DNA of 64,000 nt. Origin: Antiquaquibacter metalliresistens. Its GTDB lineage: Bacteria > Actinomycetota > Actinomycetes > Actinomycetales > Microbacteriaceae. The notes beneath the pieces are model-generated. The model saw only the letters and a list, made by a program, of their open reading frames with translations. It did no database searches and was not told the DNA's origin. A program made the translations under genes and the position numbers. The stretch spans positions 124,001 to 188,000 of the forward strand of contig NZ_JARGEM010000006.1 in NCBI RefSeq assembly GCF_029211225.1, read 5' to 3'. Every line of letters starts with the position of its first letter. Position 1 is the first letter of the stretch. Shown piece after piece: positions 20,310-42,727 of the stretch.

Positions 20310-20323
20310 AGTCCTTTGGTCCC
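20310..20323 (-). promoter_or_regulatory. DosR/DevR-like box upstream of PPSR-ppsA
   Basis: Read on the minus strand the site is GGGACCAAAGGACT, which matches the DosR core consensus GGGACTWWAGTCCC at 10 of 14 positions by my count. Its centre is about 42 bp upstream of the start point predicted from TAGTCT at 20347-20352, where class II activators bind. Two similar sites occur at 34723 and 42714. DosR binding itself is inference. Confidence 0.4.
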
Positions 20324-20325
20324 TG

Positions 20326-20341
20326 CCGGGCGCACGCCCGG
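20326..20341 (+). terminator. Short GC hairpin after pyk
   Basis: CCGGGC / GCCCGG arms around a GCAC loop, 28 nt after the pyk stop. It could end the pyk transcript, although it has no T-run and only six base pairs. Confidence 0.4.
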
Positions 20342-20346
20342 TCCCA

Positions 20347-20352
20347 TAGTCT
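20347..20352 (+). promoter_or_regulatory. Putative -10 (TAGTCT) for PPSR-ppsA
   Basis: TAGTCT predicts a start near 20359, inside the inverted repeat at 20351-20385. A related TAGTCC lies at 20309-20314 within the DosR-like box. Confidence 0.4.
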
Positions 20353-20385
20353 TCGCTGGACACCACGATGCGGTGTCCAGCGAAG
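20351..20385 (+). promoter_or_regulatory. Perfect 14-bp inverted repeat at the 5' end of the PPSR transcript
   Basis: CTTCGCTGGACACC (20351-20364) and its exact reverse complement (20372-20385) flank a 7-nt loop. The right arm ends at the first G of the ribosome-binding sequence GGAGGG (20385-20390). It could be a transcription-factor operator over the start point or an mRNA hairpin beside the ribosome-binding site. Confidence 0.5.
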
Positions 20386-20393
20386 GAGGGGAC

Positions 20394-21212
20394 GTGCAGG
20401 ATCGGTCTCCTCGGGTTGTCTTCTTCGTCTCCGACAGCACCGGGATCACCGCGGAGACGCTCGGCAACGCGCTGCTGTCGAACTTTCCGGAGTTCGGATT
20501 CGTTCGACGCACGCTCCCATTCGTGGACAGCGTCGATCGCGCCCGCGAGGTCGTGCGCGAGATCGACGACGCCACGGGGGGCCCGGCCGCACCCCTGGTG
20601 TTCACGACGGTGAGAACCGGCGCCGTGCAACAGGCGGTGCAGTCGTCCAGGGCCATCACGATCGACCTGCTACACGGTCATCTCGCCGAGCTCGAGCACA
20701 TCCTCGACACGCGGGCCTCGGAGCATCCCGGGCAATATCACGGCATCGGGGATGCCGCGCGATACCACGAGCGCATGCGCGCCGTCGAATACGCGCTCGA
20801 GCACGACGATGGGCAGAGTCTGCGCTCGCTCGACGAGGCCGACGTCATCATCATCGCCCCATCGCGGTGCGGCAAGACCCCGACCACGATGTACCTGGCG
20901 CTCCAGTACGGTCTGCTCGTTGCGAACTACCCGCTGACCGACGACGACCTGCCCGCGCAGGGACTTCCACGGCCCATCGCGCCGCACGCCCAGCGCTGCT
21001 TCGGGCTGATCACGACGCCGCAGCGGCTCAGCCAGGTGCGCCAGGAGCGGCGGCCCGGCTCGCGATACGCCTCGCTCGAGCAGTGCACCGCCGAGCTGCG
21101 GCATGCGGAGGACCTCTATCGACGGCTCCGCGTCCCGTATCTGAACTCCTCGACCAAGAGCGTCGAGGAGATGGCGGCCGTGATGCTGCACACCATGAAC
21201 CTGCGGGCCTAA
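20394..21212 (+). CDS. ppsR: PEP synthase regulatory protein (PPSR/DUF299 kinase-phosphorylase)
   Basis: Bifunctional ADP-dependent kinase and phosphate-dependent phosphorylase. It inactivates its partner by phosphorylating a threonine next to the catalytic histidine and reactivates it by phosphorolysis. It has 272 residues. The N-terminal [21 protein letters not shown] and the P-loop-like [17 protein letters not shown] (from about residue 157) are family features; the loop has RCGK where many homologues have RTSK. I chose GTG 20394 because GGAGGG lies just upstream; a start at 20316 would place a palindrome in the coding region. ppsA follows after 29 nt, which identifies the target. Confidence 0.9.
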
Positions 21213-21241
21213 CGCCGGCAACACCAGAGAGGAGCACGCTG

Positions 21242-23644
21242 ATGCAGAACATCCTGTGGTTCGAAGAGATCGGCATGGAGGACCTGCCCCAAGTGGGCGG
21301 CAAGAACGCCTCGCTCGGCGAGATGGTCTCGAAGCTCGCGGGCACCGGAGTGCGCGTTCCCGGCGGTTTCGCGACGACCGCGGACGCCTATCGGGGCTTC
21401 CTCGCACTCGACGGGCTCGATCAGCGCATCTGGTCGGCGCTGGACGCACTCGACATCGAGGATGTCGCCGAGCTCGCCCGCGTCGGCGCGGACATCCGCT
21501 CGTGGATCGAGGCTCAGCCGCTGCCTGCGGACCTCGAGCGCGACGTGCGCGCTGCCTACGCGAAGCTCATCGCGGGAGACGCCGATCCGGAGTCGGTCAC
21601 GTGGGCCGTGCGTTCGAGCGCCACCGCCGAGGATCTGCCGGATGCCTCATTCGCCGGCCAGCAGGAGACCTACCTCAACATCGGCGGTGTCGAGAACATC
21701 CTCGGCGCCATTCGCAGCGTCTACGCGTCGCTCTACAACGATCGCGCCATCACCTACCGCGTGCACCACGGCTTCGACCATCGCGATGTCGCGCTCTCGG
21801 CCGGGGTGCAGCGGATGGTGCGCTCCGACGTCGGGGCATCCGGCGTGATGTTCACCGTGGACACCGAGTCCGGGTTCGCCGGTGCCGTGTTCATCACGAG
21901 CGCCTACGGACTGGGCGAAGCCGTGGTGCAGGGCTCGGTGAACCCCGACGAGTTCTACGTCTACAAGGAGGCGCTGCGTGCCGGACGGCCGTCGATCCTC
22001 AAGCGCTCGGTGGGGGAGAAGGCGATTGCCCTCCGCTACGCCTCCGGCACGGGCGTCGTCGGTTCGACGGAGTTCACCGACGTGCCCGAGGAGGACCGCC
22101 GGCGGTTCTCGATCACCGACGACGAGGTTCAGGAGCTCGGTAGGCATGCCCTCACCATCGAGGAGCACTACGCGCGGGCGATGGACATCGAGTGGGCGAA
22201 GGACGGTGTCGACGGGCTGCTCTACATTCTGCAGGCGCGACCGGAGACGGTCGTCTCCCGCGAGAGCGGCACCGTGATGCGCCGCTCGGTGCTGCAGGAG
22301 CACGGGCCGGTCGCGGTCACCGGTCGCGCGATCGGTCAACGCATCGGGGCGGGCCCCGTGCGCGTGCTCACGTCGATCGCCCAGATGGACCGCTTTCAGC
22401 CCGGTGACGTGCTCGTGGCGGACATGACGGATCCGGATTGGGAGCCGATCATGAAGCGGGCGAGCGCCATCGTGACCGATCGCGGTGGGCGCACGTGTCA
22501 CGCGGCGATCATCGCGCGTGAGCTCGGCATCCCGGCCGTCGTGGGCACCGGCACCGCGACGCAGGTGCTGGCGGACGGGTCACCGGTCACCGTCTCCTGC
22601 GCCGAAGGCGACGACGGCGTGGTCTACCAGGGGATGCTGCGCTACGTCGAAGAGGAAACTCGGCTCGACGAGATGCCCGAGTCGCCCGTGAAGATCATGA
22701 TGAACGTCGCGACGCCGGAGCAGGCTTTCGGCCTCGCCAAGCTGCCGAACAACGGGGTCGGACTCGCGCGGCTGGAGTTCATCATCAACCAGCAGATCGG
22801 CATCCACCCGCAGGCACTGCTCGACTTCGATGCCCTTCCCGAGCCGCTCAAGCACGACGTGGCAGACCGGATCGCCGCGTATCCCTCGCCGAGGGAGTTC
22901 TTCATCCGCCGTGTCGCCGAGGGGGTGTCGATGATCGCGGCGGCGTTCGCGCCGCAGCCGGTGATCGTGCGGCTGAGCGACTTCAAGTCCAACGAGTACG
23001 CGAACCTGATCGGCGGCGATCGATACGAACCCCGCGAAGAGAACCCGATGATCGGATACCGCGGCGCGTCGCGATACATCTCCCCGGGTTTCCGGGAGTG
23101 CTTCGATCTGGAGTGCGCCGCCCTGCGGTTCGTGCGTGAGGAGATGGGGCTCACGAACGTCGAGATCATGGTGCCGTTCGTGCGCACAGTGAAGGAGGGC
23201 GCCGCGGTGCTCGACCTGCTCGCCGAAAACGGTCTGCGGCGGGGGGAGAACGGTCTCAAGGTGATCATGATGTGCGAACTGCCCAGCAACGCGGTGCTCG
23301 CGGACGACTTCCTCGAGCACTTCGACGGGTTCTCCATCGGGTCCAACGACATGACCCAGCTCACACTCGGTCTGGACCGGGACTCCGCGCTGGTCGCCCA
23401 GACCTTCGACGAGCGCGACCCGGCGGTGCTGCGGATGTTCTCGATGGCCATCGAGGCATGCCTGCGCAAGGGCAAGTACATCGGCATCTGTGGCCAGGGT
23501 CCGAGCGACTACCCCGACCTTGCGGAGTGGCTCGTGCGCGAGGGCATCCAATCGATGTCGCTCAACCCCGACAGCGTCGTGGCGACCTGGTTGCGGCTGG
23601 CAGGCATGAGCGACTCCACACCGCGAGCGGGTGCTGGGGCATGA
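21242..23644 (+). CDS. ppsA: Phosphoenolpyruvate synthase
   Basis: Makes PEP, AMP and phosphate from pyruvate, ATP and water for gluconeogenesis. It has 800 residues, shorter than pyruvate-phosphate dikinase (about 870-900). The order is N-terminal ATP-grasp domain ([32 protein letters not shown]), swivelling His domain with [20 protein letters not shown] (His420; Thr418 the expected PPSR target), and PEP-utilising barrel ([33 protein letters not shown]). GGRTCHAA rather than GGMTSHAA favours PEP synthase over dikinase. AGAGAGGAG precedes the ATG. It overlaps the next gene by four bases. Confidence 0.93.
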
Positions 23645-23871
23645 GCGAACCGAGACCTCCGCTCGCCGACATCCCCCCCGGCCGGTACCGCCACTTCAAA
23701 GGCTCGACCTACGTCGTCGTCGGGATGGCACGCCACAGCGAGACCGAGGAGCCGTTCGTGGTGTACCACCCCGAGGGCTCCGGGGAACTGTGGGTGCGTC
23801 CCGCCGCGATGTGGACCGAGACCGTGCACCGCGACGACTACGACGGTCCGAGATTCACGGCGCTGCCCTGA
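23641..23871 (+). CDS. DUF1653 domain protein
   Basis: A 76-residue protein that is almost entirely one DUF1653 domain: [32 protein letters not shown] and [13 protein letters not shown]. The family is small, all-beta and cytoplasmic, of unknown function. It overlaps the ppsA stop by four bases, so it is the last gene of the PPSR-ppsA operon; a strong hairpin follows 12 nt later. Confidence 0.85.
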
Positions 23872-23883
23872 GCAGCCACCCGA

Positions 23884-23929
23884 ACGTTCGAAAGGGACGC
23901 CCCCTGACGGAGACGTCCCTTTCGAACGT
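23884..23929 (+). terminator. Bidirectional 16-bp hairpin terminator
   Basis: Arms 23884-23899 and 23914-23929 are exact reverse complements (ACGTTCGAAAGGGACG on the left) around a 14-nt loop. It lies between the plus-strand DUF1653 gene and the minus-strand tRNA-Leu gene, and can serve both. The right arm includes the base encoding the tRNA discriminator. Confidence 0.75.
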
Positions 23930-24011
23930 GCCGGATGTGGGACTTGAACCCACACACCCTTCCGGGCGGAGCATTTTGAGTGCCCTGCGTCTGCCATTCC
24001 GCCAATCCGGC
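23929..24011 (-). tRNA. tRNA-Leu, anticodon CAA
   Basis: The minus strand folds into an 83-nt class II tRNA. The acceptor GCCGGAT pairs with ATCCGGC. The D-arm (TGGCGGAATGGCAGACGC) and the T-arm (GTGGGTTCAAGTCCCAC) are standard. The seven-base anticodon loop CTCAAAA gives anticodon CAA (23978-23976), reading UUG. The variable arm is the long one expected for leucine. The discriminator is A and CCA is not encoded. UUG is a rare leucine codon in this GC-rich sequence. Confidence 0.95.
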
Positions 24012-24020
24012 TCTCCCACG

Positions 24021-24026
24021 AGCGTA
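24021..24026 (-). promoter_or_regulatory. Putative tRNA-Leu -10 (TACGCT)
   Basis: On the minus strand TACGCT ends 9 nt before the first tRNA base. It shares the 53-nt divergent gap with the pdtaR promoter. No clear -35 is visible. Confidence 0.35.
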
Positions 24027-24051
24027 TCGCAGGTGGCCGGGCCGAATACCG

Positions 24052-24057
24052 TAGGCT
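24052..24057 (+). promoter_or_regulatory. Putative -10 (TAGGCT) of a leaderless pdtaR transcript
   Basis: TAGGCT ends 7 nt before the GTG at 24065, and no ribosome-binding sequence is present. This predicts a transcript that begins at the start codon. Confidence 0.45.
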
Positions 24058-24064
24058 CTAACCC

Positions 24065-24670
24065 GTGAATGATCAGGATGCTGCAACCTCGGCCCCACGC
24101 CGCGTCGTCGTCGCGGAGGACGAGTCGCTCATCCGCATGGACATCGTCGAGATCCTGCGAGACAACGGTTTCGAGGTGGTCGGCGAGGCCGCGGATGGCG
24201 AGACCGCCGTCGCCCTCGCGACGGAGCTTCGCCCCGACCTCGTGATCATGGACGTGAAGATGCCCCAGCTCGACGGCATCTCGGCGGCGGAGCGTCTGAG
24301 CAAGAACCACATCGCGCCGGTCGTGCTGCTCACCGCGTTCAGCCAGAAGGAGCTCGTCGAGCGGGCCTCGGAGGCCGGTGCACTCGCCTACGTGGTCAAG
24401 CCGTTCACGCCCAACGACCTGCTGCCGGCCATCGAGATTGCGCTGAGCCGCTACACCCAGATCATCACGCTCGAGGCCGAGGTCGCCGACCTCGTCGAAC
24501 GGTTCGAGACCCGCAAGCTCGTCGACCGCGCCAAGGGCCTGCTCAACGAGAAGATGGGCCTGACCGAGCCGGAGGCTTTCCGCTGGATTCAGAAGGCATC
24601 CATGGATCGCCGCCTGACCATGCACGACGTCGCCCAGGCGATCATCGAGCAGCTCTCCGCCAAGAAGTAG
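24065..24670 (+). CDS. pdtaR: ANTAR-domain response regulator (PdtaR type)
   Basis: A 201-residue response regulator that binds RNA, not DNA. The receiver domain (about 13-130) has the acidic pocket AEDE (Glu18/Asp19), phospho-acceptor Asp63 in DLVIMDVKMPQLDG, and the conserved Thr and Lys in LLTAF and YVVKPF. A coiled linker leads to an ANTAR domain (about 135-195; RKLVDRAKGLLNEKMGLTEPEAFRWIQKASM), which binds tandem hairpins in mRNA for antitermination. It is the orthologue type of M. tuberculosis Rv1626. The cognate kinase PdtaS is not in the window. The start is the leaderless GTG. Confidence 0.92.
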   Translation: MNDQDAATSAPRRVVVAEDESLIRMDIVEILRDNGFEVVGEAADGETAVALATELRPDLVIMDVKMPQLDGISAAERLSKNHIAPVVLLTAFSQKELVERASEAGALAYVVKPFTPNDLLPAIEIALSRYTQIITLEAEVADLVERFETRKLVDRAKGLLNEKMGLTEPEAFRWIQKASMDRRLTMHDVAQAIIEQLSAKK

Positions 24671-24678
24671 TCATCCGG

Positions 24679-25410
24679 ATGCCCGGCTCGGTGGTCATCA
24701 CCGGTGGCGGCCGCGGCGTGGGCAAGGCCATCGCCGAGACGCTGCTCGCGCGCGGCCTCGCGGTCGTCGTGCTCGATCTCGAGGCGCCGGACTGGACGCA
24801 TCCGCTGCTGACCGCCGTCACCGGCGACGCGGCGGACCCCACCGATGTCGCGCGCGCCGCGACTGCCGCCGTGCAGGCCGCTCCGCTCGTCGGGTGGGTG
24901 AACAACGCGGCGGTGTTCGACGACGCGTTCCTGCATTCCGACCCGGCCGGGGTGTTGGAGGTGATCGCCGCCAACCTCGTTCCGGCCGTCGTGGGTTCGG
25001 CGGAGGCCGTGAACCGGTTCCTCGCCGCAGGCAGCTCCGGATCGATCGTCAACGTCTCATCGCATCAGGCGCAGCGCGCGGTCGCCGGAGCTCTGCCGTA
25101 CTCGACGGCGAAGGCCGCGATCGAGGGACTGACCCGCGCGACCGCCGTCGACTACGCCCGCGACCGGATCCGCGTGAACGCCGTCGCCCTGGGCTCGATC
25201 GTCACGGAACGCTTCGACGGCGACGCAGCCATCACGGGCGCCGTGCATCCCGTGGGCCGCATGGGTGCCGCGAGCGAGGTCGGCGACGTCGTCGCCTGGC
25301 TGCTCTCGAACGCCGCCACGTTCGTCACGGGCACGGTGATCCCGGTCGACGGCGGGCGCGCCGCCTGGGGACGCGACCCCGAGGAGAAGTGGCCGACGTC
25401 AGTCGAGTAG
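24679..25410 (+). CDS. Short-chain dehydrogenase/reductase
   Basis: A 243-residue classical SDR, cytoplasmic, using NAD(P)H. The cofactor motif is VVITGGGRGVGKAIAE (about 5-20). The structural motif is WVNNAAVFDD, the catalytic Ser lies in IVNVSSHQA, and YSTAK gives Tyr141 and Lys145. The C-terminal FVTGTVIPVDGGRA is typical. The acidic residue DLEAPD after the second strand suggests NAD(H) preference. The substrate is unknown. It follows pdtaR by 8 nt without its own ribosome-binding site and converges on the thioesterase gene 20 nt downstream. Confidence 0.88.
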   Translation: MPGSVVITGGGRGVGKAIAETLLARGLAVVVLDLEAPDWTHPLLTAVTGDAADPTDVARAATAAVQAAPLVGWVNNAAVFDDAFLHSDPAGVLEVIAANLVPAVVGSAEAVNRFLAAGSSGSIVNVSSHQAQRAVAGALPYSTAKAAIEGLTRATAVDYARDRIRVNAVALGSIVTERFDGDAAITGAVHPVGRMGAASEVGDVVAWLLSNAATFVTGTVIPVDGGRAAWGRDPEEKWPTSVE

Positions 25411-25430
25411 CGACCGCAGTCGCAGAGGAT

Positions 25431-25859
25431 TCAGGCGTCGCGCAGGATGTTCGTCATGCGCACGGTCGAGAGCCGCCGGCCCTCTTCGTCCCGGATGACG
25501 ATCTCGTGGGTCGCGAGCGTGCGGCCCAGCACGAGCGCGTCGCACGTCGCCGTCACGACTCCGTGGTCGATCGAGCGGCTGTGGGTGGCGTTGATCTCGA
25601 TGCCCATCGCGATGCGACCCGGGCCGGCGTGGATCGCCGAGGAGATCGAGCCGAGCGATTCGCCGAGCACGACGTGCGCTCCGCCGTGCAGGATGCCGAT
25701 CACCTGGGTGTTGCCGAGCACGGGCATGGTCGCCACCGAGTGCTCGGCGGAAAGCTCGAGGTACTCGATGCCCATCTTGGCGGTCAGCGCGCCGCCGTTC
25801 GAGGCGACGAGACGCTCGTAGAGGTTCGGATCGAGGTCCGCGGGGTACTTCGTGGGCAT
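25431..25859 (-). CDS. PaaI-family hotdog thioesterase
   Basis: A 142-residue hotdog-fold acyl-CoA thioesterase. Typical PaaI/4-hydroxybenzoyl-CoA thioesterase segments are MGIEYLELSAEHSVATMPV, the active-site helix ILHGGAHVVLGESLGS (HGG with the conserved Glu/Ser) and INATHSRSIDHGVVTATCDAL. Acyl specificity cannot be told. The ATG at 25859 follows a GGAGAG ribosome-binding sequence; a GTG at 25871 would precede that sequence and is less likely. It is transcribed divergently from polA across 47 bp. Confidence 0.88.
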   Translation of the reverse strand: MPTKYPADLDPNLYERLVASNGGALTAKMGIEYLELSAEHSVATMPVLGNTQVIGILHGGAHVVLGESLGSISSAIHAGPGRIAMGIEINATHSRSIDHGVVTATCDALVLGRTLATHEIVIRDEEGRRLSTVRMTNILRDA

Positions 25860-25894
25860 CGTTCTCTCCACCTCGATGTGTCGGATGTCACGGC

Positions 25895-25900
25895 TAGGCT
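25895..25900 (+). promoter_or_regulatory. Putative -10 (TAGGCT) of a leaderless polA transcript
   Basis: TAGGCT ends 6 nt before the polA GTG at 25907, with no ribosome-binding sequence, again predicting leaderless expression. Confidence 0.45.
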
Positions 25901-25906
25901 GGCCGG

Positions 25907-28564: not shown

Positions 28565-28596
28565 ACCACGCCGCATCGATCAGTCAGGAGCACCAC

Positions 28597-28866
28597 ATGG
28601 CCGAACGCACCGTCGCCGTCGCCTCGAGCATCGGCCTGCACGCGCGACCCGCGTCGCTGTTCGCGCAGGCCGCGGCCCGCACCGGCGTGCTCGTCACGCT
28701 CACGGCGCCGTCGGGTCGCAGCGTGAACGCGGCCAGTATCCTCGGCGTGCTCTCGCTGGGGATCGGGCACGGCGAGACCGTGACCATCGCGGCCGAGGGC
28801 GACGGCGCCGACGCCGCGCTCGATGAGCTCGCCGCGCTGTTGGCGCGGGATCTCGAGAACGAGTAG
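28597..28866 (+). CDS. ptsH: HPr phosphocarrier protein
   Basis: General phosphocarrier of the sugar phosphotransferase system, 89 residues. The PEP-derived phosphate goes to His15 in SSIGLHARPASLF. The regulatory serine region VNAASILGVLSLGI has Ser47 at the position of HPr Ser46. CAGGAG precedes the ATG by a normal distance. No EI or EII gene is adjacent; it sits alone between polA and the DUF885 gene. Because PEP is the phosphate donor, it depends on the pyk/ppsA balance encoded upstream. Confidence 0.93.
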   Translation: MAERTVAVASSIGLHARPASLFAQAAARTGVLVTLTAPSGRSVNAASILGVLSLGIGHGETVTIAAEGDGADAALDELAALLARDLENE

Positions 28867-28874
28867 CCCGAGAC

Positions 28875-28880
28875 TAGGCT
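28875..28880 (+). promoter_or_regulatory. Putative -10 (TAGGCT) of a leaderless DUF885 operon
   Basis: TAGGCT ends 7 nt before the ATG at 28888; there is no ribosome-binding sequence. It would begin the four-gene DUF885 to mgtA operon. Confidence 0.45.
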
Positions 28881-28887
28881 CGACCAC

Positions 28888-34713: not shown

Positions 34714-34722
34714 TCCGATCGA

Positions 34723-34736
34723 GGGACCTTCGCCCT
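34723..34736 (+). promoter_or_regulatory. DosR/DevR-like box upstream of the debranching enzyme gene
   Basis: GGGACCTTCGCCCT matches GGGACTWWAGTCCC at 10 of 14 positions by my count. A CACGAT at 34759-34764 could be the -10, placing the site centre about 42 bp before the start point. Inference only. Confidence 0.4.
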
Positions 34737-34773
34737 GGTGTCAACGTGGCCGCGCGCGCACGATGGAGGCATC

Positions 34774-36894
34774 ATGGCAGGTTGGAACGAGGACACGCTC
34801 GCGGGCACCGCGGGACCGGATGCGGTGACGATCATCGAGGGCGCCGCATTCTGCGTCTCGCACGCGGACGGCGACATGGAGGCCGGTCGTCCGCACGGGC
34901 TGTTCATGTACGACACGCGCCTCGTCTCCACGTGGACGACGCGGATCAACGGTCACCCCATCGAGGTGCTCTCGGCGATGGTGCGCGAGCCGTACCACGC
35001 GACGCTGCTGGGTCGGGTGCATCACGGCGACGCCGAGCCGGATGGATCGCTGCTGGTGCGACGGGAACGCTGGGTGGGGGTTGGCCTGCGCGAGCGCATC
35101 GCACTCACGAACTCCTCGCCGGTGCCGGTCGAGGTGCTGCTCGAGGTGACGGTGGAGACCGACTTCGCGGACGTCTTCGACGTGAAGGCTTCCCGCCCGA
35201 TGCAGGCGCACACCCCCGAGGGTGCCACGGTGCTGCACGGCCTTGCCTTCGAAGGCGGTGCGGAGCACGAGTTCCGTGGGGTGATCGTCGAGTCCCCAGG
35301 TGCGGCCGTCGAGGGTCAGAGCCTGCTCCATCGCACCCGTCTCGGTGCGCATGAGACCTGGACGACGACATTCTCTGCGGTCCCCACCCGCTCCGGGGTG
35401 CCCATCGTGGCCCGCTCCGACGAGGAGCAGCCGCAGCACGAACGCGAGATCGAGCGCAGGTTCATGGCGTGGCACGAGGATGCGCCGTCACCGACGGTCG
35501 AGAACGATGCCATCGAGACGGCCATCCGGCGCGGTCAGTCGGATCTCGGCTCGCTGCGGATCTTCGACCCGGCGCACCCGGATCGGCAGGTGATCGCCGC
35601 CGGCGCCCCCTGGTTCATGGCGCTGTTCGGTCGCGACTCGATCCTCACCTCGATCATGTCGCTCGCGGTGGATCCGAGCCTGGCGCTCGGCACCTTGCGC
35701 ACGCTCGGCGACCTGCAGGGCAGCATCCACGATCCACGCACCGAGGAGCAGCCGGGCAAGATCCTGCACGAGGTGCGCCTCGGCGCGAGCGTCAATGCGG
35801 CCCTCGGCGGCCGAACGACCTACTTCGGCACGGTCGATGCCACACCGCTGTTCGTCGTGGCGCTGGGGGAGCTGGCCGAGTGGGGCGCTTCCACGGCCGA
35901 CATCGCGGCGCTGCTCCCGCACGCCGATCTCGCGCTGCGCTGGATGACCACGCACGGCGACGCGGACCGCGACGGTTTCATCGAGTACCAGCGCAGCGAT
36001 GAGCTCGGACTGCACAACCAGGGCTGGAAGGACTCCTGGGACGCCATCTCGTTCGCAGACGGCACGCTCGCCGAGCCGCCGATCGCGCTGTGCGAGGTGC
36101 AGGGATATGCCTACGCCGCGTTTCGGGCGCGCGCGGGGCTGGCCCGAGCCGTCGGGGACGCGGAGACCGCGGAGCGTTGGGATCGCGCGGCCGCGACGTT
36201 GAAGGAGCGCTTCAACGAGCAGTTCTGGATGGCCGACCGCCAGTATTTCGCCATCGCGCTCGATCGCGACAAGCGCCAGGTCGATGCCTGCGCCTCCAAC
36301 ATGGGCCATTGCCTGTGGAGCGGCATCGTCGACGACGACAAGGCGCCGCACGTGGCCGAGCGGCTGCTCTCGGACCAGATGTTCGGGGGCTGGGGTGTGC
36401 GAACCCTCGCGACCGACATGGCCCGATACAACCCGGCGAGCTACCACAACGGGTCGGTCTGGCCGCATGACAACGCGATCATCGCCGCGGGCCTGATGCG
36501 CTACGGATTCGTCGAGGCGGCACAACGCGTGGCGCTCGCGATCTTCGACGCGTCCGAGCACTTCGGCGCCAGGCTTCCCGAGCTCTTCTGCGGCTTCTCG
36601 CGCGAGAGCTACGAGCGGCCAGTGCCCTACCCGAACGCGTGCTCGCCCCAGGCATGGGCGGCCGCGGCGCCGATTTCGCTGGTTCGCACCCTATTGCGGC
36701 TCGAAGCCGATGTGCCCAACCGCCAGGTGTGGCTCGCCCCCGCACTTCCCGCGTCGTTCGGTGGCGTCCAGATCGACAATGTGCGGCTCGCCGGGGCTCG
36801 GGTGCGAGTGGAGGTCGCTGGGGGGATGACGCGGCTCTCCGGCCTGCCGGAAGGCATCAGCGTGCACGCCGTACCCCGGTACGGGGAGCGATAG
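34774..36894 (+). CDS. Glycogen-debranching-like amylo-alpha-1,6-glucosidase
   Basis: A 706-residue cytoplasmic enzyme. The N-terminal beta-sandwich (about 1-210) carries VTIIEGAAFCVSHADGD, GLFMYDTRLVSTW and IALTNSSPVPVEV, typical of the bacterial GDE_N_bis domain. The C-terminal (alpha/alpha)6 barrel (about 270-690) has GAPWFMALFGRDSILTS, DGFIEYQRSDELGLHNQGWKDS, and NGSVWPHDNAIIAAGL, the acidic residues of which are likely catalytic. The family is annotated as amylo-alpha-1,6-glucosidase/glycogen debranching; the true glucan is unproven. ATG 34774 follows GGAGG. A GT4 glycosyltransferase gene follows 4 nt later. Confidence 0.85.
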   Translation: MAGWNEDTLAGTAGPDAVTIIEGAAFCVSHADGDMEAGRPHGLFMYDTRLVSTWTTRINGHPIEVLSAMVREPYHATLLGRVHHGDAEPDGSLLVRRERWVGVGLRERIALTNSSPVPVEVLLEVTVETDFADVFDVKASRPMQAHTPEGATVLHGLAFEGGAEHEFRGVIVESPGAAVEGQSLLHRTRLGAHETWTTTFSAVPTRSGVPIVARSDEEQPQHEREIERRFMAWHEDAPSPTVENDAIETAIRRGQSDLGSLRIFDPAHPDRQVIAAGAPWFMALFGRDSILTSIMSLAVDPSLALGTLRTLGDLQGSIHDPRTEEQPGKILHEVRLGASVNAALGGRTTYFGTVDATPLFVVALGELAEWGASTADIAALLPHADLALRWMTTHGDADRDGFIEYQRSDELGLHNQGWKDSWDAISFADGTLAEPPIALCEVQGYAYAAFRARAGLARAVGDAETAERWDRAAATLKERFNEQFWMADRQYFAIALDRDKRQVDACASNMGHCLWSGIVDDDKAPHVAERLLSDQMFGGWGVRTLATDMARYNPASYHNGSVWPHDNAIIAAGLMRYGFVEAAQRVALAIFDASEHFGARLPELFCGFSRESYERPVPYPNACSPQAWAAAAPISLVRTLLRLEADVPNRQVWLAPALPASFGGVQIDNVRLAGARVRVEVAGGMTRLSGLPEGISVHAVPRYGER

Positions 36895-36898
36895 CGCC

Positions 36899-37909
36899 AT
36901 GCGCATCGGATTGATCGCCCCGCCGTGGCTCGCGATCCCGCCCGGAGCGTACGGCGGGATCGAGTACATGATCGAGGCGCTCGCGGTCGCGCTGCAGCGC
37001 GCCGGGCACGATGTGGTGCTCGCGGCATCGGGGGACAGCACCTGCCCGGTGCCCCGGCTCTCGGCGTTCCCCCCGTCGGACCCGCAGACGATGGGGCAGA
37101 GCCTGGCCGAGTTGCGGCACGTCACGCGGGCGTACCGCGAGCTGCACGACGTCGAGGTGATTCACGACCACAGCCTCATCGGCCCGCACTTGCGCGAGCG
37201 CCCGCAGGGCGTACCCGTGGTGACCACCGCCCACGGCCCCTTCACCCCGGCGATCCTCGACACCTTCACCGCCCTTCCTCGCGACGTCTCGGTGGTGGCG
37301 ATCTCGCGGCACCAGGCCTCCACGGCGTCCGGGGTGCCGATCGCGCGCGTCATCCATCACGGCATCGACGTGAGCACGATTGCGTTCGGTCCGGGCGCCG
37401 GCGGCTACGCGTGCTTCGTCGGACGGATGAGCCCGGACAAGGGCGTCGCGAGGGCGATCGATGCGGCCCGCCGGGTCGGAATGCCCCTGCGGATCGCCGC
37501 GAAGATGCGCGAACCGCTGGAACGGGAGTACTTCGAGGCCTGGGTGAGGCCGCAGCTCGGACCGGCGGTGGAGTTCCTGGGCGAGTTGACCCGGTCGGAG
37601 AAGGCGCAGCTGCTCGGTGGTGCGATCGCGCTCATCAACCCGATCGCCTGGGACGAGCCCTTCGGCCTTGTGATGATCGAGGCCCTCGCCGCAGGCACGC
37701 CGGTGGTCGCGACCCCGCGCGGATCCGCTCCCGAGATTATCGACTCCGGCCGCACCGGCTTCATCTGCAGCACCCCGGAGGAGTTCGATGCCGCGCTCGC
37801 ACGCGTCGCGGAGCTCGATCGGCGGGACTGCCGAAGGGAAGCGGAGGGGCGCTTCAGCGCGACCCGGATGGCGCGTGACTACGTCGAGCTCTACCGACAG
37901 CTCGCCTGA
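36899..37909 (+). CDS. GT4-family glycosyltransferase
   Basis: A 336-residue GT-B fold retaining glycosyltransferase. The N-terminal domain starts RIGLIAPPWLAIPPGAYGG with the glycine-rich acceptor loop. The C-terminal domain has the nucleotide-sugar-binding FVGRMSPDKGVARAIDAA and the EX7E segment EPFGLVMIEALAAGTPVVAT. No membrane helix or signal peptide is seen. It forms a two-gene unit with the debranching-like hydrolase, so both probably act on the same alpha-glucan or glycoside. Donor and acceptor cannot be named from sequence. Confidence 0.87.
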   Translation: MRIGLIAPPWLAIPPGAYGGIEYMIEALAVALQRAGHDVVLAASGDSTCPVPRLSAFPPSDPQTMGQSLAELRHVTRAYRELHDVEVIHDHSLIGPHLRERPQGVPVVTTAHGPFTPAILDTFTALPRDVSVVAISRHQASTASGVPIARVIHHGIDVSTIAFGPGAGGYACFVGRMSPDKGVARAIDAARRVGMPLRIAAKMREPLEREYFEAWVRPQLGPAVEFLGELTRSEKAQLLGGAIALINPIAWDEPFGLVMIEALAAGTPVVATPRGSAPEIIDSGRTGFICSTPEEFDAALARVAELDRRDCRREAEGRFSATRMARDYVELYRQLA

Positions 37910-37932
37910 ATGCGCGCGCGGCGCCACTGGCC

Positions 37933-37975
37933 CTGGAACGTGTGAAGCGCTAAGCTGGAACGTCGCAATTGCGAC
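37933..37975 (+). promoter_or_regulatory. rpsA promoter region with -10, direct repeat and palindrome
   Basis: TAAGCT (37951-37956) is a good -10. CTGGAACGT occurs at 37933-37941 and again at 37955-37963, a 22-bp period. The perfect 14-bp palindrome GTCGCAATTGCGAC (37962-37975) begins where transcription should start. The rpsA leader would be about 94 nt and lacks an obvious ribosome-binding sequence near the ATG. Confidence 0.45.
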
Positions 37976-38056
37976 TTCTATCCGCCTGCCATCGGCGAAC
38001 ACACCAAGCACCACCAGCCATGGCCTGATTCTGTCCCCATCCGGAGCAACTACTAC

Positions 38057-39523
38057 ATGACAATCGCAACGACCGCCACGGCCCCCAAGCAGATCGCGAT
38101 CAACGACATCGGATCCGCTGACGACTTCCTGGCCGCGGTCGAGAAGACGCTGAAGTTCTTCAACGACGGAGACCTCATCGAAGGTACCGTCGTCAAGATC
38201 GACCGGGACGAGGTTCTCCTCGATGTCGGTTACAAGACCGAGGGTGTCATCCCCTCCCGCGAGCTCTCCATCAAGCACGACGTGGACCCCACCGAGGTCG
38301 TCCAGGTCGGTGACACGGTCGAGGCCCTCGTTCTCCAGAAGGAGGACAAGGAAGGCCGGCTCATCCTCTCCAAGAAGCGCGCACAGTACGAGCGCGCCTG
38401 GGGCGATGTCGAGAAGATCAAGGATGCCGATGGCGTCGTCACCGGTTCGGTGATCGAGGTCGTCAAGGGCGGTCTCATCGTCGACATCGGCCTGCGAGGC
38501 TTCCTGCCCGCATCGCTCATCGAGCTGCGCCGTGTTCGCGACCTCACGCCGTACCTCGGCCAGGAGATCGAGGCGAAGATCCTCGAGCTCGACAAGAACC
38601 GCAACAACGTCGTGCTGTCGCGCCGCGCGCTGCTCGAGCAGACGCAGAGCGAGAGCCGCACGACCTTCCTCAACAACCTCGCCAAGGGCCAGGTTCGCAA
38701 GGGTGTCGTCTCGTCGATCGTCAACTTCGGTGCGTTCGTCGACCTCGGCGGTGTGGACGGTCTCGTGCACGTCTCTGAACTGTCGTGGAAGCACATCGAG
38801 CACGCCTCCGAGGTGGTCGAGGTCGGCCAGGAGGTCACCGTCGAGATCCTCGAGGTCGACCTCGAGCGCGAGCGCGTGTCGCTCTCGCTCAAGGCGACCC
38901 AGGAGGACCCGTGGCAGGTCTTCGCCCGCACCCACGCCATCGGCCAGGTCGCGCCCGGCAAGGTCACCAAGCTCGTTCCGTTCGGCGCGTTCGTTCGCGT
39001 CGCGGAGGGCATCGAGGGCCTCGTGCACATCTCCGAGCTCTCCGGCAAGCACGTCGAGCTCGCCGAGCAGGTCGTGTCGGTCGGCGACGAGGTCTTCGTC
39101 AAGGTCATCGACATCGACCTCGAGCGTCGCCGCATCTCGCTCTCGCTGAAGCAGGCGAACGAGGGCGTGGACCCCGAGGGCACCGAGTTCGACCCGGCGC
39201 TCTACGGCATGCTCACCGAGTACGACGACCAGGGCAACTACAAGTACCCGGATGGCTTCGACCCGGAGACCAACGAGTGGAAGGAAGGCTTCGAGGAGCA
39301 GCGCGCCAAGTGGGAGGCCGACTACGCGGCCGCCCAGGCCCGCTGGGAGCAGCACAAGAAGCAGGTCGCCGCGGCCGCGCTCCAGGAGGACATGCCCTCG
39401 ACGGGCGTGCCCGCCGGTGCGTCGTCGTTCTCGAGCGACGAGGCGTCCAGCACGGGCGGCACCCTCGCCGACGATGAGGCGCTTGCGGCGCTCCGCGAGA
39501 AGCTCGCGAGCAACAACTCCTAG
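38057..39523 (+). CDS. rpsA: 30S ribosomal protein S1
   Basis: mRNA-binding ribosomal protein with four S1 domains and 488 residues, the actinobacterial form (the E. coli protein has six). Domain starts are visible as GDLIEGTVVKIDRDEVLLDVG (~38), VVTGSVIEVVKGGLIVDIG (~125), GQVRKGVVSSIVNFGAFVDL (~210) and GQVAPGKVTKLVPFGAFVRV (~297). The C-terminus is rich in Trp/Glu, then Ser/Ala-rich and flexible. Like other S1 proteins it may regulate its own translation through its leader. A strong bidirectional hairpin follows. Confidence 0.96.
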   Translation: MTIATTATAPKQIAINDIGSADDFLAAVEKTLKFFNDGDLIEGTVVKIDRDEVLLDVGYKTEGVIPSRELSIKHDVDPTEVVQVGDTVEALVLQKEDKEGRLILSKKRAQYERAWGDVEKIKDADGVVTGSVIEVVKGGLIVDIGLRGFLPASLIELRRVRDLTPYLGQEIEAKILELDKNRNNVVLSRRALLEQTQSESRTTFLNNLAKGQVRKGVVSSIVNFGAFVDLGGVDGLVHVSELSWKHIEHASEVVEVGQEVTVEILEVDLERERVSLSLKATQEDPWQVFARTHAIGQVAPGKVTKLVPFGAFVRVAEGIEGLVHISELSGKHVELAEQVVSVGDEVFVKVIDIDLERRRISLSLKQANEGVDPEGTEFDPALYGMLTEYDDQGNYKYPDGFDPETNEWKEGFEEQRAKWEADYAAAQARWEQHKKQVAAAALQEDMPSTGVPAGASSFSSDEASSTGGTLADDEALAALREKLASNNS

Positions 39524-39534
39524 TCACCCACGAA

Positions 39535-39566
39535 CGAACGGCCGGTCCCTCGGGGCCGGCCGTTCG
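39535..39566 (+). terminator. Bidirectional terminator between rpsA and DUF4126
   Basis: Arms CGAACGGCCGGTCC (39535-39548) and 39553-39566 pair over 14 bp with one G-U and a CTCG tetraloop. Additional outer CGAACG/CGTTCG pairing is possible. It sits 11 nt after rpsA and 8 nt after the end of the convergent DUF4126 gene. Confidence 0.8.
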
Positions 39567-39574
39567 TCGTTCGT

Positions 39575-40177
39575 TCACACCGAGGTGCTCGCGGCCTCTC
39601 GCCTCCGTCGACCGCGCCGACGCAGCAGCAGCACGAAGCCGACCACCACGCCGCCGAGCGCCACGATCACCAGCACCGGGATCAACAGCGCGAGGAAGCT
39701 CAGGATGACGCTGCCGACGTCTTCGGCGGTGCTCACGACCGGCGCCGCGGCCCCCACGGTGACCGCATTGAGCGCGGGACGGGAGGCCATCTTGGTCACG
39801 TGCGTCACGAGCGCGAGCACGACACCGACGGCCACCGGCACCCACGCCGACGACGTGAAGAACGAGGCCGGATCGGTGACGACCGCGGTCTGCGAGGCGG
39901 CTCCCGTGCCGAAGGCGATGCCACCGGCGGCCGGTCGCACGATGGTCTGCAGCCAATCGTTCACCGAGTCCACGACCGGGATCTTGTCGGCGACGATCTC
40001 GATCACGAGCAGCACGCCGAGGATGCCGAGTACCCACTCGTTCTCCAGCCACGCCCACCCCGCCGGCAGCACGACAAAGTCGAGGAAGCGGCCGGCGAGA
40101 CCCAGGATCAGCAGCGGGATGTAGGCGTTCAGTCCGGCCGCCACGGCCAGCCCGGATCCGGTGAGCACCTCGAGCAT
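39575..40177 (-). CDS. DUF4126 membrane protein
   Basis: A 200-residue integral membrane protein of the DUF4126 family, function unknown. The N-terminal GSGLAVAAGLNAYIPLLILGLAGRF is the family hallmark. Several hydrophobic segments follow (ILGVLLVIEIVADKIP, VPVAVGVVLALVTHV, SFLALLIPVLVIVALGGVVVG region), then a strongly basic C-terminal tail (RRRGRRRREAA), which should stay in the cytoplasm. Its ATG has the strong ribosome-binding sequence AGGAGGG. It is transcribed divergently from coaE. Confidence 0.85.
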   Translation of the reverse strand: MLEVLTGSGLAVAAGLNAYIPLLILGLAGRFLDFVVLPAGWAWLENEWVLGILGVLLVIEIVADKIPVVDSVNDWLQTIVRPAAGGIAFGTGAASQTAVVTDPASFFTSSAWVPVAVGVVLALVTHVTKMASRPALNAVTVGAAAPVVSTAEDVGSVILSFLALLIPVLVIVALGGVVVGFVLLLRRRGRRRREAASTSV

Positions 40178-40205
40178 CGTCGCATCCCTCCTGCTGTTGC
40201 AGCCG

Positions 40206-40215
40206 AGGCTAGCAT
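40206..40215. promoter_or_regulatory. Overlapping divergent -10 elements (DUF4126 / coaE)
   Basis: TAGCAT (40210-40215, plus) ends 6 nt before the coaE ATG, so coaE is probably leaderless. TAGCCT (40211 to 40206, minus) would start the DUF4126 transcript with a leader of about 22 nt containing AGGAGGG. The two hexamers share the bases at 40210-40211, within a CTAG palindrome. Confidence 0.45.
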
Positions 40216-40221
40216 TGCAGG

Positions 40222-40827
40222 ATGATCCAGATCGCCCTCACCGGAGGCATCGCTTCAGGCAAATCGGTGGTGGGCAATCGGCTGGTCGAGCACGGCGCGG
40301 TGCTCATCGACGCGGACACCATCGCGCGCGAGGTCGTGCGCCCCGGCACCCCCGGGCTCGCCCGGATCGTGGAGGAGTTCGGCGCCGGCGTGCTCGCCGC
40401 GGACGGCACGCTCGATCGGCCGGCGCTCGCGGCGATCGTGTTCGCGGACCCGACGCGCCGCGCCGCACTCAACGCGATCACGCATCCGCTCATCGCCGCG
40501 CGGTCGCGAGAGCTCGTCGCCGCCGCTGCGAAGGACGCGGTCGTGGTGCACGACATCCCGCTCCTGGCCGAAGGCACTCGCAAGGGCGACGGGTTCGACC
40601 TCGTGGTCGTGGTGCACGCGCCGGTCGAGACGCGCCTGCGCCGAATGATGGACGACCGGGGGATGACGCGGCAGGAGGCCCAGCAGCGCATCGACGCGCA
40701 GGCTTCCGACGCCGACCGCCTCGCCCTCGCGGACGTCGTGATCGAGAACGACGGCGAACTCGCCGACACCTTCCACCAGGTGGACGAGCTGTGGGCGAGC
40801 CTGCAGCGCAGGCGCGACGCGGTCTAG
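40222..40827 (+). CDS. coaE: Dephospho-CoA kinase
   Basis: Last step of coenzyme A synthesis: phosphorylates the 3'-hydroxyl of dephospho-CoA. It has 201 residues. The P-loop is ALTGGIASGKSVV (Gly/Lys/Ser at about 8-15), followed by VLIDADTIAREVV, the lid region RLRRMMDDRGMTRQEAQQRIDAQ and DVVIENDGEL. Some actinobacterial CoaE proteins carry an extra C-terminal UPF0157 domain; this one does not. Its TAG stop interlocks with the stop of the convergent phosphoribosyltransferase gene. uvrB follows farther downstream, as is common. Confidence 0.95.
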   Translation: MIQIALTGGIASGKSVVGNRLVEHGAVLIDADTIAREVVRPGTPGLARIVEEFGAGVLAADGTLDRPALAAIVFADPTRRAALNAITHPLIAARSRELVAAAAKDAVVVHDIPLLAEGTRKGDGFDLVVVVHAPVETRLRRMMDDRGMTRQEAQQRIDAQASDADRLALADVVIENDGELADTFHQVDELWASLQRRRDAV

Positions 40828-41471
40828 CGTTCGCCGCTCGCCGAGGCGGCGTCGAGCAGGGCGATCACGTCCTCTTCAGTCGTGGGGGAGAAGTCGCGGT
40901 AGTGCGCGCCGACCGCCCAGAACTGATCGGGTATCGCCAGGCAGACCACCTCATCCGCGTCGTCGATGCTCGAGAGCGCATCCGCCGGGCCCACCGGCAC
41001 CGCGAGCACCACGCGCGCGGCGCCGAGCGCGCGCGCAACCTGGCAGGCCGCCCGTGCCGTCGCACCCGTGGCGATGCCGTCGTCCACGATGATCGCGGTG
41101 CGGCCATGGAGGTCCAAGCGTTCCCGGCCCAGGCGGAACCGTCGAGTGCGGGCCACCAACGTCGCGCGCTCCCGTTCCTCGACCTCGCGCAGCGCCGTCT
41201 CGTCCACCCCGAGGCCCGAGATGAGGCGACGATCGAGCACTCGAACCTCGCCTTCGCCGATCGCGCCCATCGCGACCTCAGGCTGGAACGGAACCCCGAG
41301 CTTTCTGACGACGATGACGTCGAGCGGCAGCCCCAGCACCCGCGCGACCTGCGCCGCCACCGGCACGCCGCCTCGCGGCAGGCCGAGCACCACCGCGTCC
41401 GTGCCCCGGAATCGTTCGAGGCTCCCGGCCAGCCGACGCCCCGCGTCGATCCGATCCTCGTAGACGACCAT
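40824..41471 (-). CDS. Phosphoribosyltransferase-domain protein
   Basis: A 215-residue type I phosphoribosyltransferase-fold protein. The PRPP-binding motif is AIIVDDGIATGATARAA (about 127-143). The flanking VLGLPRGGVPVAAQVARVL and VIVVRKLGVPFQPEVAMGAIGEG are typical of the family found in Mycobacterium next to stress genes (Rv0571c/Rv2030c type), not of purine or pyrimidine salvage enzymes. The true substrate is unknown. It lies 2 nt after the baeRF gene in one operon and ends within the coaE stop (shared CTAG). Confidence 0.83.
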   Translation of the reverse strand: MVVYEDRIDAGRRLAGSLERFRGTDAVVLGLPRGGVPVAAQVARVLGLPLDVIVVRKLGVPFQPEVAMGAIGEGEVRVLDRRLISGLGVDETALREVEERERATLVARTRRFRLGRERLDLHGRTAIIVDDGIATGATARAACQVARALGAARVVLAVPVGPADALSSIDDADEVVCLAIPDQFWAVGAHYRDFSPTTEEDVIALLDAASASGER

Positions 41472-41473
41472 GA

Positions 41474-42652
41474 CTATCCCGTGAGGCCTCGCCCGGGTAC
41501 GCCCGGCGCCGTGCCCGTCGTGTAGCGCAGGATCGCGGCGACGGCTCCGCCGCCGGGCACGGGCACCGCGGTGCTCGGCACGAGCAGGGCCCCCGTCAGC
41601 AGCGCGCGCCTGACGACCTCGTCGACGATGCAGTAGTTGCCGGCATCGTCCTGCTGTGCCGGGGCGATCGTGCCATCGCGCTCGTCCATTACGCCCGGCA
41701 CGTCGGCATCGCCGTCGAAGAACAGCGTGCGGATCGCGCCCTCCGTCGCCGACCGCGCGACCTCGCTCAGGTCGGTGGCCGTGCGCCCGGCGCCGACGTT
41801 CTCCTCGTAGTCGGCCGCCAGGTGCTCCGCCTCCCGCGCGCGAAGCGCGGCGACGTGCGGGCGCCCGCCTGCGGCGAGATCGTGGTCGGACGTTCGCTCC
41901 GGGTTCCCGTCGACGGTGGTCGGCACCAGACCGGGTCGGGTCGATGCGGACCGGAAGATCGACGCGAGCGGCTCCGCAGCCGCGATCACGAGGGGCCAGT
42001 CGGGCACGCCCGGGTCATCGTTGAGTGCTCGATCGATCGCTCGGCTGTACTCGAGCATGCGCAGTTTCGGATCCTCCGACGTCTGAAGGTGCGCATAGGT
42101 CTGGCGATCGTTCGTGAGATCGAGTGCGGTGGCACTGCGAAGGTCGGCCGGCATATCGGGGACCTCGAGGGACGACGCGGAATCGTCAGCGCCGACCGCC
42201 ACCAACCGCACGGAGTCCTGGGCGAGCGCGAGCACCAGGAACGCGTCCGCCGCGTGCACCGCAGCGAGCAGCGGGGTCAGGTGGAACCGGTCGGCCACGT
42301 GCGCGGACGCCGACACGGTCACCGGCAGCGGATGCGCGACGAGTCGCGTCGCACTCGCGAGCACGACGAGCCCATGCCACTGGTGCCGCCAGGCCGCAGG
42401 ATCCTCGAGCAGTCCGGTGACGGATGCGACCACGGCGCCCACCACGGACTCGTCTGCGCCCGCTGCCTCCAGTTGGGTCACGGCATCCCGGAGCACGTCC
42501 TTCAATCCGATGCGGGCGAGATCGGCATCCGCGCCCAGCGGACTCGCCGGAACGTAGAGCGAGACGCAACCCGCTTCACGAACCCGCGCCAGCGCCTCGA
42601 TGCTCTGCGGATCCATTCCCTGCAGCCACCGGGGTGGCATCGTGGTCGACAT
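41474..42652 (-). CDS. baeRF-type (bacterial eRF1-like) protein, Rv2629-like
   Basis: A 392-residue protein resembling the bacterial archaeo-eukaryotic release-factor family (baeRF), whose members include M. tuberculosis Rv2629. N-terminal VSLYVPASPLGADADLARIGLK, central VRLVAVGADDSASSLEVPDMP and C-terminal TDLSEVARSATEGAIRTLFFDGDAD, DEVVRRALLTGALLVPSTAVP and GGGAVAAILRYTTG are consistent with that fold. Function is unknown; ribosome-associated stress roles are proposed for the family. The ATG at 42652 follows GGGAGC; a long upstream extension lacks family similarity. It is the first gene of a unit with the phosphoribosyltransferase, downstream of a DosR-like box. Confidence 0.78.
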   Translation of the reverse strand: MSTTMPPRWLQGMDPQSIEALARVREAGCVSLYVPASPLGADADLARIGLKDVLRDAVTQLEAAGADESVVGAVVASVTGLLEDPAAWRHQWHGLVVLASATRLVAHPLPVTVSASAHVADRFHLTPLLAAVHAADAFLVLALAQDSVRLVAVGADDSASSLEVPDMPADLRSATALDLTNDRQTYAHLQTSEDPKLRMLEYSRAIDRALNDDPGVPDWPLVIAAAEPLASIFRSASTRPGLVPTTVDGNPERTSDHDLAAGGRPHVAALRAREAEHLAADYEENVGAGRTATDLSEVARSATEGAIRTLFFDGDADVPGVMDERDGTIAPAQQDDAGNYCIVDEVVRRALLTGALLVPSTAVPVPGGGAVAAILRYTTGTAPGVPGRGLTG

Positions 42653-42683
42653 CGGCGTGCTCCCATCGAGATGATTGCGTCCG

Positions 42684-42689
42684 ACGGTA
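42684..42689 (-). promoter_or_regulatory. Putative -10 (TACCGT) for baeRF-phosphoribosyltransferase
   Basis: On the minus strand TACCGT predicts a start near 42677, about 43 bp after the centre of the DosR-like box and 25 nt before the ATG. Confidence 0.35.
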
Positions 42690-42713
42690 GAACGGGTCGT
42701 GCATGCCCGACCA

Positions 42714-42727
42714 GGGCACAAGGTCCC
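42714..42727 (-). promoter_or_regulatory. DosR/DevR-like box upstream of the baeRF unit
   Basis: On the minus strand GGGACCTTGTGCCC matches GGGACTWWAGTCCC at 10 of 14 positions by my count, with perfect GGGAC and CCC ends. It lies in the 128-bp divergent gap shared with uvrB. Confidence 0.45.

Follow-up and report, generated by a model that had tools for sequence, protein, structure and literature searches.

The genome of Antiquaquibacter metalliresistens very probably carries an oxygen-response regulon of the DosR/OsdR type, and two short sites in the stretch of DNA analysed here, site 3 before a baeRF-phosphoribosyltransferase operon and site 2 before a gene for a glycogen debranching-type enzyme, are predicted to be operators of it. 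The stretch, called the window below, is 64,000 nucleotides long (C31:124001-188000, in a genome of 3.07 Mb in 34 contigs). From its letters alone, an original prediction had picked out three 14-mers resembling the box of mycobacterial DosR, the remaining one being site 1 before ppsR and the gene for phosphoenolpyruvate (PEP) synthase, and had proposed their joint control under oxygen limitation. Sites 2 and 3 look like real switches because the genome has DosR, a sensor and matching promoters.

Regulator, sensor and motif in the genome

A DosR-like regulator, without which the proposal would have fallen, is encoded on contig C1 (L010:10948-11595). Its best PDB match by phmmer is DevR (3c3w, 2.1e-67), followed by VraR (2.7e-38), and its DNA-binding helices are closely similar to those of DevR. 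Adjoining it is a DosS-like kinase (L010:9356-10951) with two GAF domains, HisKA_3 and HATPase, so that the anticipated dosR/dosS pair is indeed present. The GAF domain of the kinase matches 2vzw and the DevS structures 2w3d, 2y79 and 4ynr, the kinase end matches DosT/DevS, and the histidine aligned in HHPNM/YHPPM, which we take to be the haem ligand, is present. Beside dosRS stand a gene for a tandem universal stress protein (USP), cydA, cydB, an ABC transporter in the place of CydDC and a pyridoxamine-oxidase-like protein.

Searching the genome for the exact motif GGGACCWWNGNCCC gave 7 matches against 1 for the control, the same pattern read backwards, and all 7 lie outside gene calls. When one mismatch was allowed, the intergenic bias that the original prediction had looked for was borne out, with 37 of 58 matches outside genes. 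We call a box promoter-placed when it is correctly oriented and a start codon follows at a distance of 40-115 bp; this holds for 25 of the 58 matches, compared with 2.3% for 60 permuted patterns and 0.9% of window positions. The 58 include three palindromic places counted on both strands, and the DNA of the placement set was chosen partly for holding matches, which affects counts more than placement. Gene calls came from our own codon-position scorer with a simple choice of start, so distances to start codons are approximate, and genes in fetched stretches were named by Pfam for the most part and by eye for some.

The genes behind the 25 promoter-placed boxes include those for cytochrome bd subunit I, two zinc alcohol dehydrogenases, lactate dehydrogenase, Hsp20, OsmC and flavodoxin, together with a FUR-family regulator, a VKOR protein, a multicopper oxidase and a beta-CASP metallohydrolase. 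The box beside the dosRS-linked USP gene faces cydA, and at another USP gene a box with one mismatch stands 72 bp upstream, within the gene that comes before it (C34:8171). The nitroreductase that had been expected among the targets was found in a qualified form: one boxed protein has a marginal nitroreductase match, exactly at the Pfam cut-off.

Aligned by their boxes, the 22 promoters that lie outside the window proved to share another element, the -10, at offsets 37-42 counted from the start of the box, with A at offset 38 in 14 of 22 promoters and T at offset 42 in 13. This puts the box centre some 43 bp ahead of the start point, so that the box covers part of the -35 region. At 10 of the 25 promoter-placed sites the box starts 46-51 bp before the start codon; the message should therefore begin at or beside that codon, and leaderless messages are predicted for these ten. 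If this interpretation is correct, low oxygen would cause the GAF-domain kinase to phosphorylate DosR, which would then bind the near-palindrome GGGACC(T/A)(T/A)CGNCCCT, a substitute for the -35 box centred some 43 bp ahead of the start point, and bring polymerase to the -10 element. We infer binding by DosR, dependence on oxygen and induction of the boxed genes. Known DosS sensors also respond to nitric oxide and carbon monoxide.

Two places in the genome are worth recording for their boxes. One exact box (L013:8119-8132; G000:C29:369618-369631) sits between convergent genes and is not directly followed by a gene on its own strand; it is antisense to a DUF998 gene that has a box of its own, and no promoter or terminator pattern was found beyond the orphan box, which possibly serves an antisense or small RNA. 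The other stretch (L008, G000:C31:1-20000) has two exact boxes and a one-mismatch box before the multicopper oxidase gene, and also holds a phosphoketolase gene and, judged by eye, a metal P-type ATPase-like gene near a transposase-like fragment.

The three sites of the window

The features in question are as follows.

20310..20323, minus strand: site 1, candidate weak box GGGACCAAAGGACT, reversed relative to ppsR; matrix rank 9, uncertain
20347..20352, plus strand: -10-like TAGTCT at offsets 37-42 from site 1; score reached by 0.13% of window positions
20394..21212, plus strand: ppsR, PEP synthase regulatory protein (kinase/pyrophosphorylase); Pfam PF03618
21242..23644, plus strand: PEP synthase, start ATG; Pfam PPDK_N, PEP-utilizers and PEP-utilizers_C on the longer open reading frame (ORF) 20867-23644
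34723..34736, plus strand: site 2, DosR-type box GGGACCTTCGCCCT, 51 bp before the ATG; rank 2 by box matrix, rank 1 with the -10 included
34759..34764, plus strand: putative -10 CACGAT, shifted by -1 from the conserved position; 1.1% of positions score at least as high
34774..36894, plus strand: glycogen debranching-type enzyme (GDE_N_bis, MGH1-like, GDE_C by Pfam)
36899..37909, plus strand: GT4-family glycosyltransferase (Pfam), just downstream of the debranching gene
40824..41471, minus strand: phosphoribosyltransferase, next gene of the baeRF operon; Pfam PF00156
41474..42652, minus strand: baeRF-family protein (bacterial archaeo-eukaryotic release factor); Pfam baeRF_family11/8/3
42684..42689, minus strand: putative -10 TACCGT for baeRF, shifted by +1 from where the 22 boxed promoters have theirs
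42714..42727, minus strand: site 3, DosR-type box GGGACCTTGTGCCC before baeRF; matrix rank 1 in the window

All three 14-mers were found where the original prediction had put them, on the strands it gave, sharing GGGACC followed by two A/T bases, and each agrees with GGGACTWWAGTCCC, the core known from mycobacteria, in 10 of its 14 positions, whichever strand is read. This likeness was rejected as evidence: it is reached at 16 distinct places of the window (9 inside gene calls, 7 outside), and six Markov sequences gave 36-72 strand matches at that level against 32 in the window, as many or more. No place in the window reaches 11 of 14. The shared form GGGACCWWNNNNCY, a pattern written only after the sites had been seen, occurs 3 times in the window where 0.51 is expected, and 3 of 100 shuffles reach 3.

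The sites are intergenic, as claimed, with starts at GTG 20394 for ppsR, ATG 34774 for the debranching enzyme, ATG 42652 for baeRF and ATG near 42781 for the divergent uvrB, which also has site 3 upstream; alternative longer ORFs would run over site 3 (uvrB from 42703) and site 1 (ppsR from TTG 20316). Their claimed orientation toward the genes they precede is right for sites 2 and 3 and wrong for site 1, where GGGACC is read on the minus strand and both ppsR and ppsA on the plus strand. The -10 spacing was also recovered, the hexamers being shifted by -1 at site 2 and by +1 at site 3, where the hexamer is weak, and by 0 at site 1 on the plus strand.

A further measure was a box matrix trained on 22 promoter-placed sites, none of them within the window, which themselves score 12.5-22.4. 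Over about 128,000 position-strand pairs of the window, site 3 ranks first (19.3) and site 2 second (16.5); ranks 3 to 8 (14.0 to 10.1) belong to positions within genes in five cases and to the edge of the window in one. With the -10 element scored as well, site 2 comes first and site 3 second, the latter because of its strong box, its -10 being weak. That all three sites are chance, unrelated GGGACC words in GC-rich DNA would explain why likeness to the mycobacterial core is so common in the window, why the one-mismatch pattern is as frequent genome-wide as its reverse and why site 1 scores below the training range. Chance is nevertheless highly improbable as an account of the set: two of its members head the list of a matrix trained elsewhere, the motif is placed at promoters far more often than permuted patterns are, and the box of site 3 recurs unchanged before the same operon in another genus.

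Conservation, the lack of which in close relatives the original prediction had named beforehand as refuting it, speaks for one site of the three. Site 3 is kept in another genus and in a genus mate; sites 1 and 2 have no counterpart in the homologues examined, which for these two counts against the prediction, although close orthologues by which they could be judged are few or none. We surveyed 27 genomes of the genus, our own included. Homologues of baeRF occur in 15 of 60 family genomes and in 11 of the 27 (both counts include our genome), and a motif search found the phosphoribosyltransferase next to baeRF at 3 of 25 homologue loci: our own, G036 of another genus and G072 of the same genus, whose baeRF proteins are respectively 37% and 45% identical to ours. 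The neighbouring gene was confirmed by Pfam in G036 and by ORFs in G072. A box with at most one mismatch precedes the operon at all 3 loci with the phosphoribosyltransferase and at 0 of the 22 others, among which L057, L060 and L062 have a two-mismatch box, reversed. In G036 the box is the identical GGGACCTTGTGCCC while the remaining promoter has diverged; in G072, which has DosR, it is GTGACCTTCGGCCC. The 14-mer of site 3 also recurs in G081, in the DNA around dosR, where a zinc alcohol dehydrogenase gene close to dosRS follows it at 93 bp. As for its -10 element, the score of TACCGT is reached by 23% of window positions. Taken together, these comparisons argue strongly, and with high confidence, for site 3 as a predicted operator of the DosR/OsdR regulon. 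The operon of G036 goes on with an erythromycin-esterase family gene and a cation ATPase gene (L185, G036:C1:97000-110000), and two DosR-type boxes lie near this gene row.

For site 2, box score, strand and promoter elements suggest that it is likely, with fair confidence, an operator of the same regulon; the start point of the debranching gene would then be near its ATG and the message possibly leaderless. The enzyme is rare in the genus. Its subfamily (E <= 1e-120) was found there in our genome only (1 of 27), several genus mates hold more distant homologues of about 37-40% identity, and the nearest relatives in named genomes are those of Cryobacterium and Agromyces, at 56-58%. It is conceivable, if unlikely, that only site 3 works as an operator and that site 2 is a chance match in a promoter, as the want of a counterpart in the homologues examined might suggest. 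But the score of site 2 lies within the training range, the box stands on the correct strand at a suitable distance from the ATG, few positions have as good a -10, and only about 1.3 of the 58 matches are expected to be promoter-placed by chance.

Site 1 is a different case. At 9.4 bits it lies outside the operator range, whose lowest training site scores 12.5, and in the orientation of ppsR it scores 4.0, which is rank 81 by box and rank 11 with the -10 added. By matrix range and orientation it is thus set apart from the operators, and by -10 spacing it resembles them. Reversed boxes do occur elsewhere: at 11 intergenic matches a start follows at 40-115 bp with the box in reverse (7 of these are forward-placed as well), and site 1 may therefore be a weak operator. 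We regard a weak reversed box here as a candidate only, with chances somewhat short of even. Present in 2 of the 27 genus genomes, ppsR has 6 other homologues, within 350 bp of which no box with at most two mismatches was found, the top matrix score being 11.0, at -341 in one. Because sites 1 and 2 have no counterpart in the homologues examined and site 1 is weak and reversed, the claim that PEP synthesis shares in a joint control is unproven.

Directly before the ppsR ribosome-binding site lies a perfect 13-bp hairpin with a 7-nt loop (20352-20384; -24.6 kcal/mol, z -4.7), which may be left over from a pyk terminator or may be a structure of the leader. Transcription starting where TAGTCT would place it would cut into the left arm.

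Motif and regulator among relatives

Within the genus the motif follows DosR, taken as present when a match reaches E <= 1e-45. The 13 DosR-positive genomes hold 49 exact motifs against 20 for the control and the 14 DosR-negative genomes hold 3 against 25 (Fisher p 5e-8); leaving out our own genome gives 42/19 and 3/25 (p 2e-7). The same trend, weaker, is seen in 19 genomes from the rest of the order, with 118/36 in 12 DosR-positive and 23/20 in 7 DosR-negative genomes (p 0.004). In the dosR stretches of the 12 DosR-positive genus mates, 35 matches score at least 16 bits by the box matrix, of which 2 are inside genes and 21 promoter-placed; at least one match occurs in 10 of the 12 stretches, and the two without any are contigs of 5.5 and 9.8 kb. 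Ten downstream proteins chosen from these stretches were, by Pfam, two each of cytochrome bd subunit I, USP, phosphoketolase, alcohol dehydrogenase and pyridoxamine-oxidase-like protein.

These counts also bear on the idea that the motif is real but read by another regulator of the NarL/FixJ family. The genome has eight HisKA_3 kinase matches, and two DosR-negative relatives of the order show a certain excess (G094 8 against 4, G099 5 against 2), while the seven taken together show none. We consider this reading highly improbable: motif counts track DosR in the genus, boxes are gathered around dosRS and before cytochrome bd and USP genes, and the commonest form of the box occurs in a region reported as bound by OsdR (PMC5069765).

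Several observations weigh against a DosR/OsdR-type regulon with sites 2 and 3 as operators. Only 4 of the 7 exact sites in the genome are promoter-placed, and the one-mismatch total (58 against 64 for the control) was rejected as evidence, placement alone parting signal from noise. Among the genes behind the 25 promoter-placed boxes are several without an obvious link to oxygen, namely those for an M24 peptidase, an MFS transporter, a GDSL/GAF protein and small unknown proteins, and the training sites of the matrix were selected by the motif pattern itself. No excess of the motif over its control is seen in 5 of the 13 DosR-positive genus genomes (G061 1/3, G072 1/2, G075 2/5, G077 0/3, G080 1/1) or in four family genomes of other genera (G001 0/1, which is DosR-positive, G002 0/2, G003 1/8 and G004 0/1), which were left out of the genus and order tests. 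At 20 other debranching loci, no box with at most one mismatch lies in the 350 bp upstream, three of them having two-mismatch boxes (L090 at -288, L091 at -172 reversed, L080 at -238); the 21 loci, our own and these 20, came from 28 match rows after removal of L074, whose match starts inside the protein, and of the fragments L082, L083 and L086-L089. Likewise, among 80 of 572 debranching relatives from named genomes, no locus exceeds a score of 11 over the 350 bp upstream, and 10 of the 80 reach 8.6-10.9; in this set the upstream DNA is shorter than 350 bp at two loci, and several genomes are represented more than once.

One relative from the order, G102, has 36 exact matches against 0 for the control. 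A boxed cluster of about 50 kb in it (G102:C4:336500-396200, L180-L182) holds, by Pfam, dosRS-like genes, an Hsp20 gene and a gene of the pyruvate phosphate dikinase (PPDK) family; by eye it also has many USP genes and nitrate-reductase-like genes.

Known systems and biological meaning

Regulons of the DosR/OsdR type are known from Mycobacterium and Streptomyces. The regulator and sensor described here share their domains with M. tuberculosis DosR/DevR and its sensors, and Hsp20, USP and nitroreductase genes are M. tuberculosis DosR targets that are probably shared here. The original prediction had also drawn attention to Rv2629, presumably baeRF-like, and Rv0571c, which we take to be a phosphoribosyltransferase. 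Both are listed as motif-bearing units of the DosR regulon (PMC2275270, Table 1), and the described DevR promoters resemble ours in that the box overlaps the -35 region (PMC3029386, PMC5360333). The boxes themselves differ, the mycobacterial core being GGGACTWWAGTCCC (PMC2275270) and our consensus GGGACCTTCGNCCCT, with C at position 6 in 19 of 22 sites.

The OsdR/OsdK system of S. coelicolor is similar in having a DosR orthologue beside kinase and USP genes and a near-palindromic box. OsdR is reported to bind the SCO5978/5979 region, between a USP gene and a PPDK gene, where the predicted site is CGGGACCTTCGGCCCT, and its predicted targets include USP, alcohol dehydrogenase, nitroreductase, pyridoxamine oxidase and PPDK genes (PMC5069765). 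One of the S. coelicolor sites predicted there contains GGGACCTTCGGCCC, which is present twice in our genome. The Streptomyces consensus given, AGGGCCGATCGGCCCT, differs from our GGGACCTTCGNCCCT by a C as the fourth base of GGGNCC and by a central GA/TC. The boxes at cytochrome bd, Hsp20 and lactate dehydrogenase genes of our genome are a further apparent difference, in a comparison in which the target lists were not matched gene by gene. Control of PEP metabolism by DosR is plausible in general by analogy, because the PPDK-family gene of G102 lies in a boxed cluster and OsdR binds the interval between USP and PPDK genes in S. coelicolor; for site 1 it would be a candidate only.

Literature word searches pairing DosR with Microbacteriaceae or Micrococcales found no paper among those available for searching, and among the matches listed for DevR and Microbacterium none appears to be on the regulator. 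A DosR regulon may thus be undescribed in this lineage. One attractive but tentative possibility, to which we lend rather less than even weight, is that genes rare in the genus (baeRF followed by the phosphoribosyltransferase gene is found in 2 of the 27 genomes) have been captured by a resident, patchily kept DosR switch. The outcome would be a strain-specific, often leaderless low-oxygen programme joining glycogen breakdown, PEP formation, cytochrome bd and the release-factor-like operon, with baeRF-phosphoribosyltransferase as a DosR-controlled module across genera. The 14 of 27 genus genomes that lack a DosR match and are almost without boxes can be set against the others, a comparison provided by nature through which DosR targets might be identified outside a pathogen, and the boxed baeRF-phosphoribosyltransferase operon of three genomes provides a handle on the role of a release-factor-like protein when oxygen runs out.

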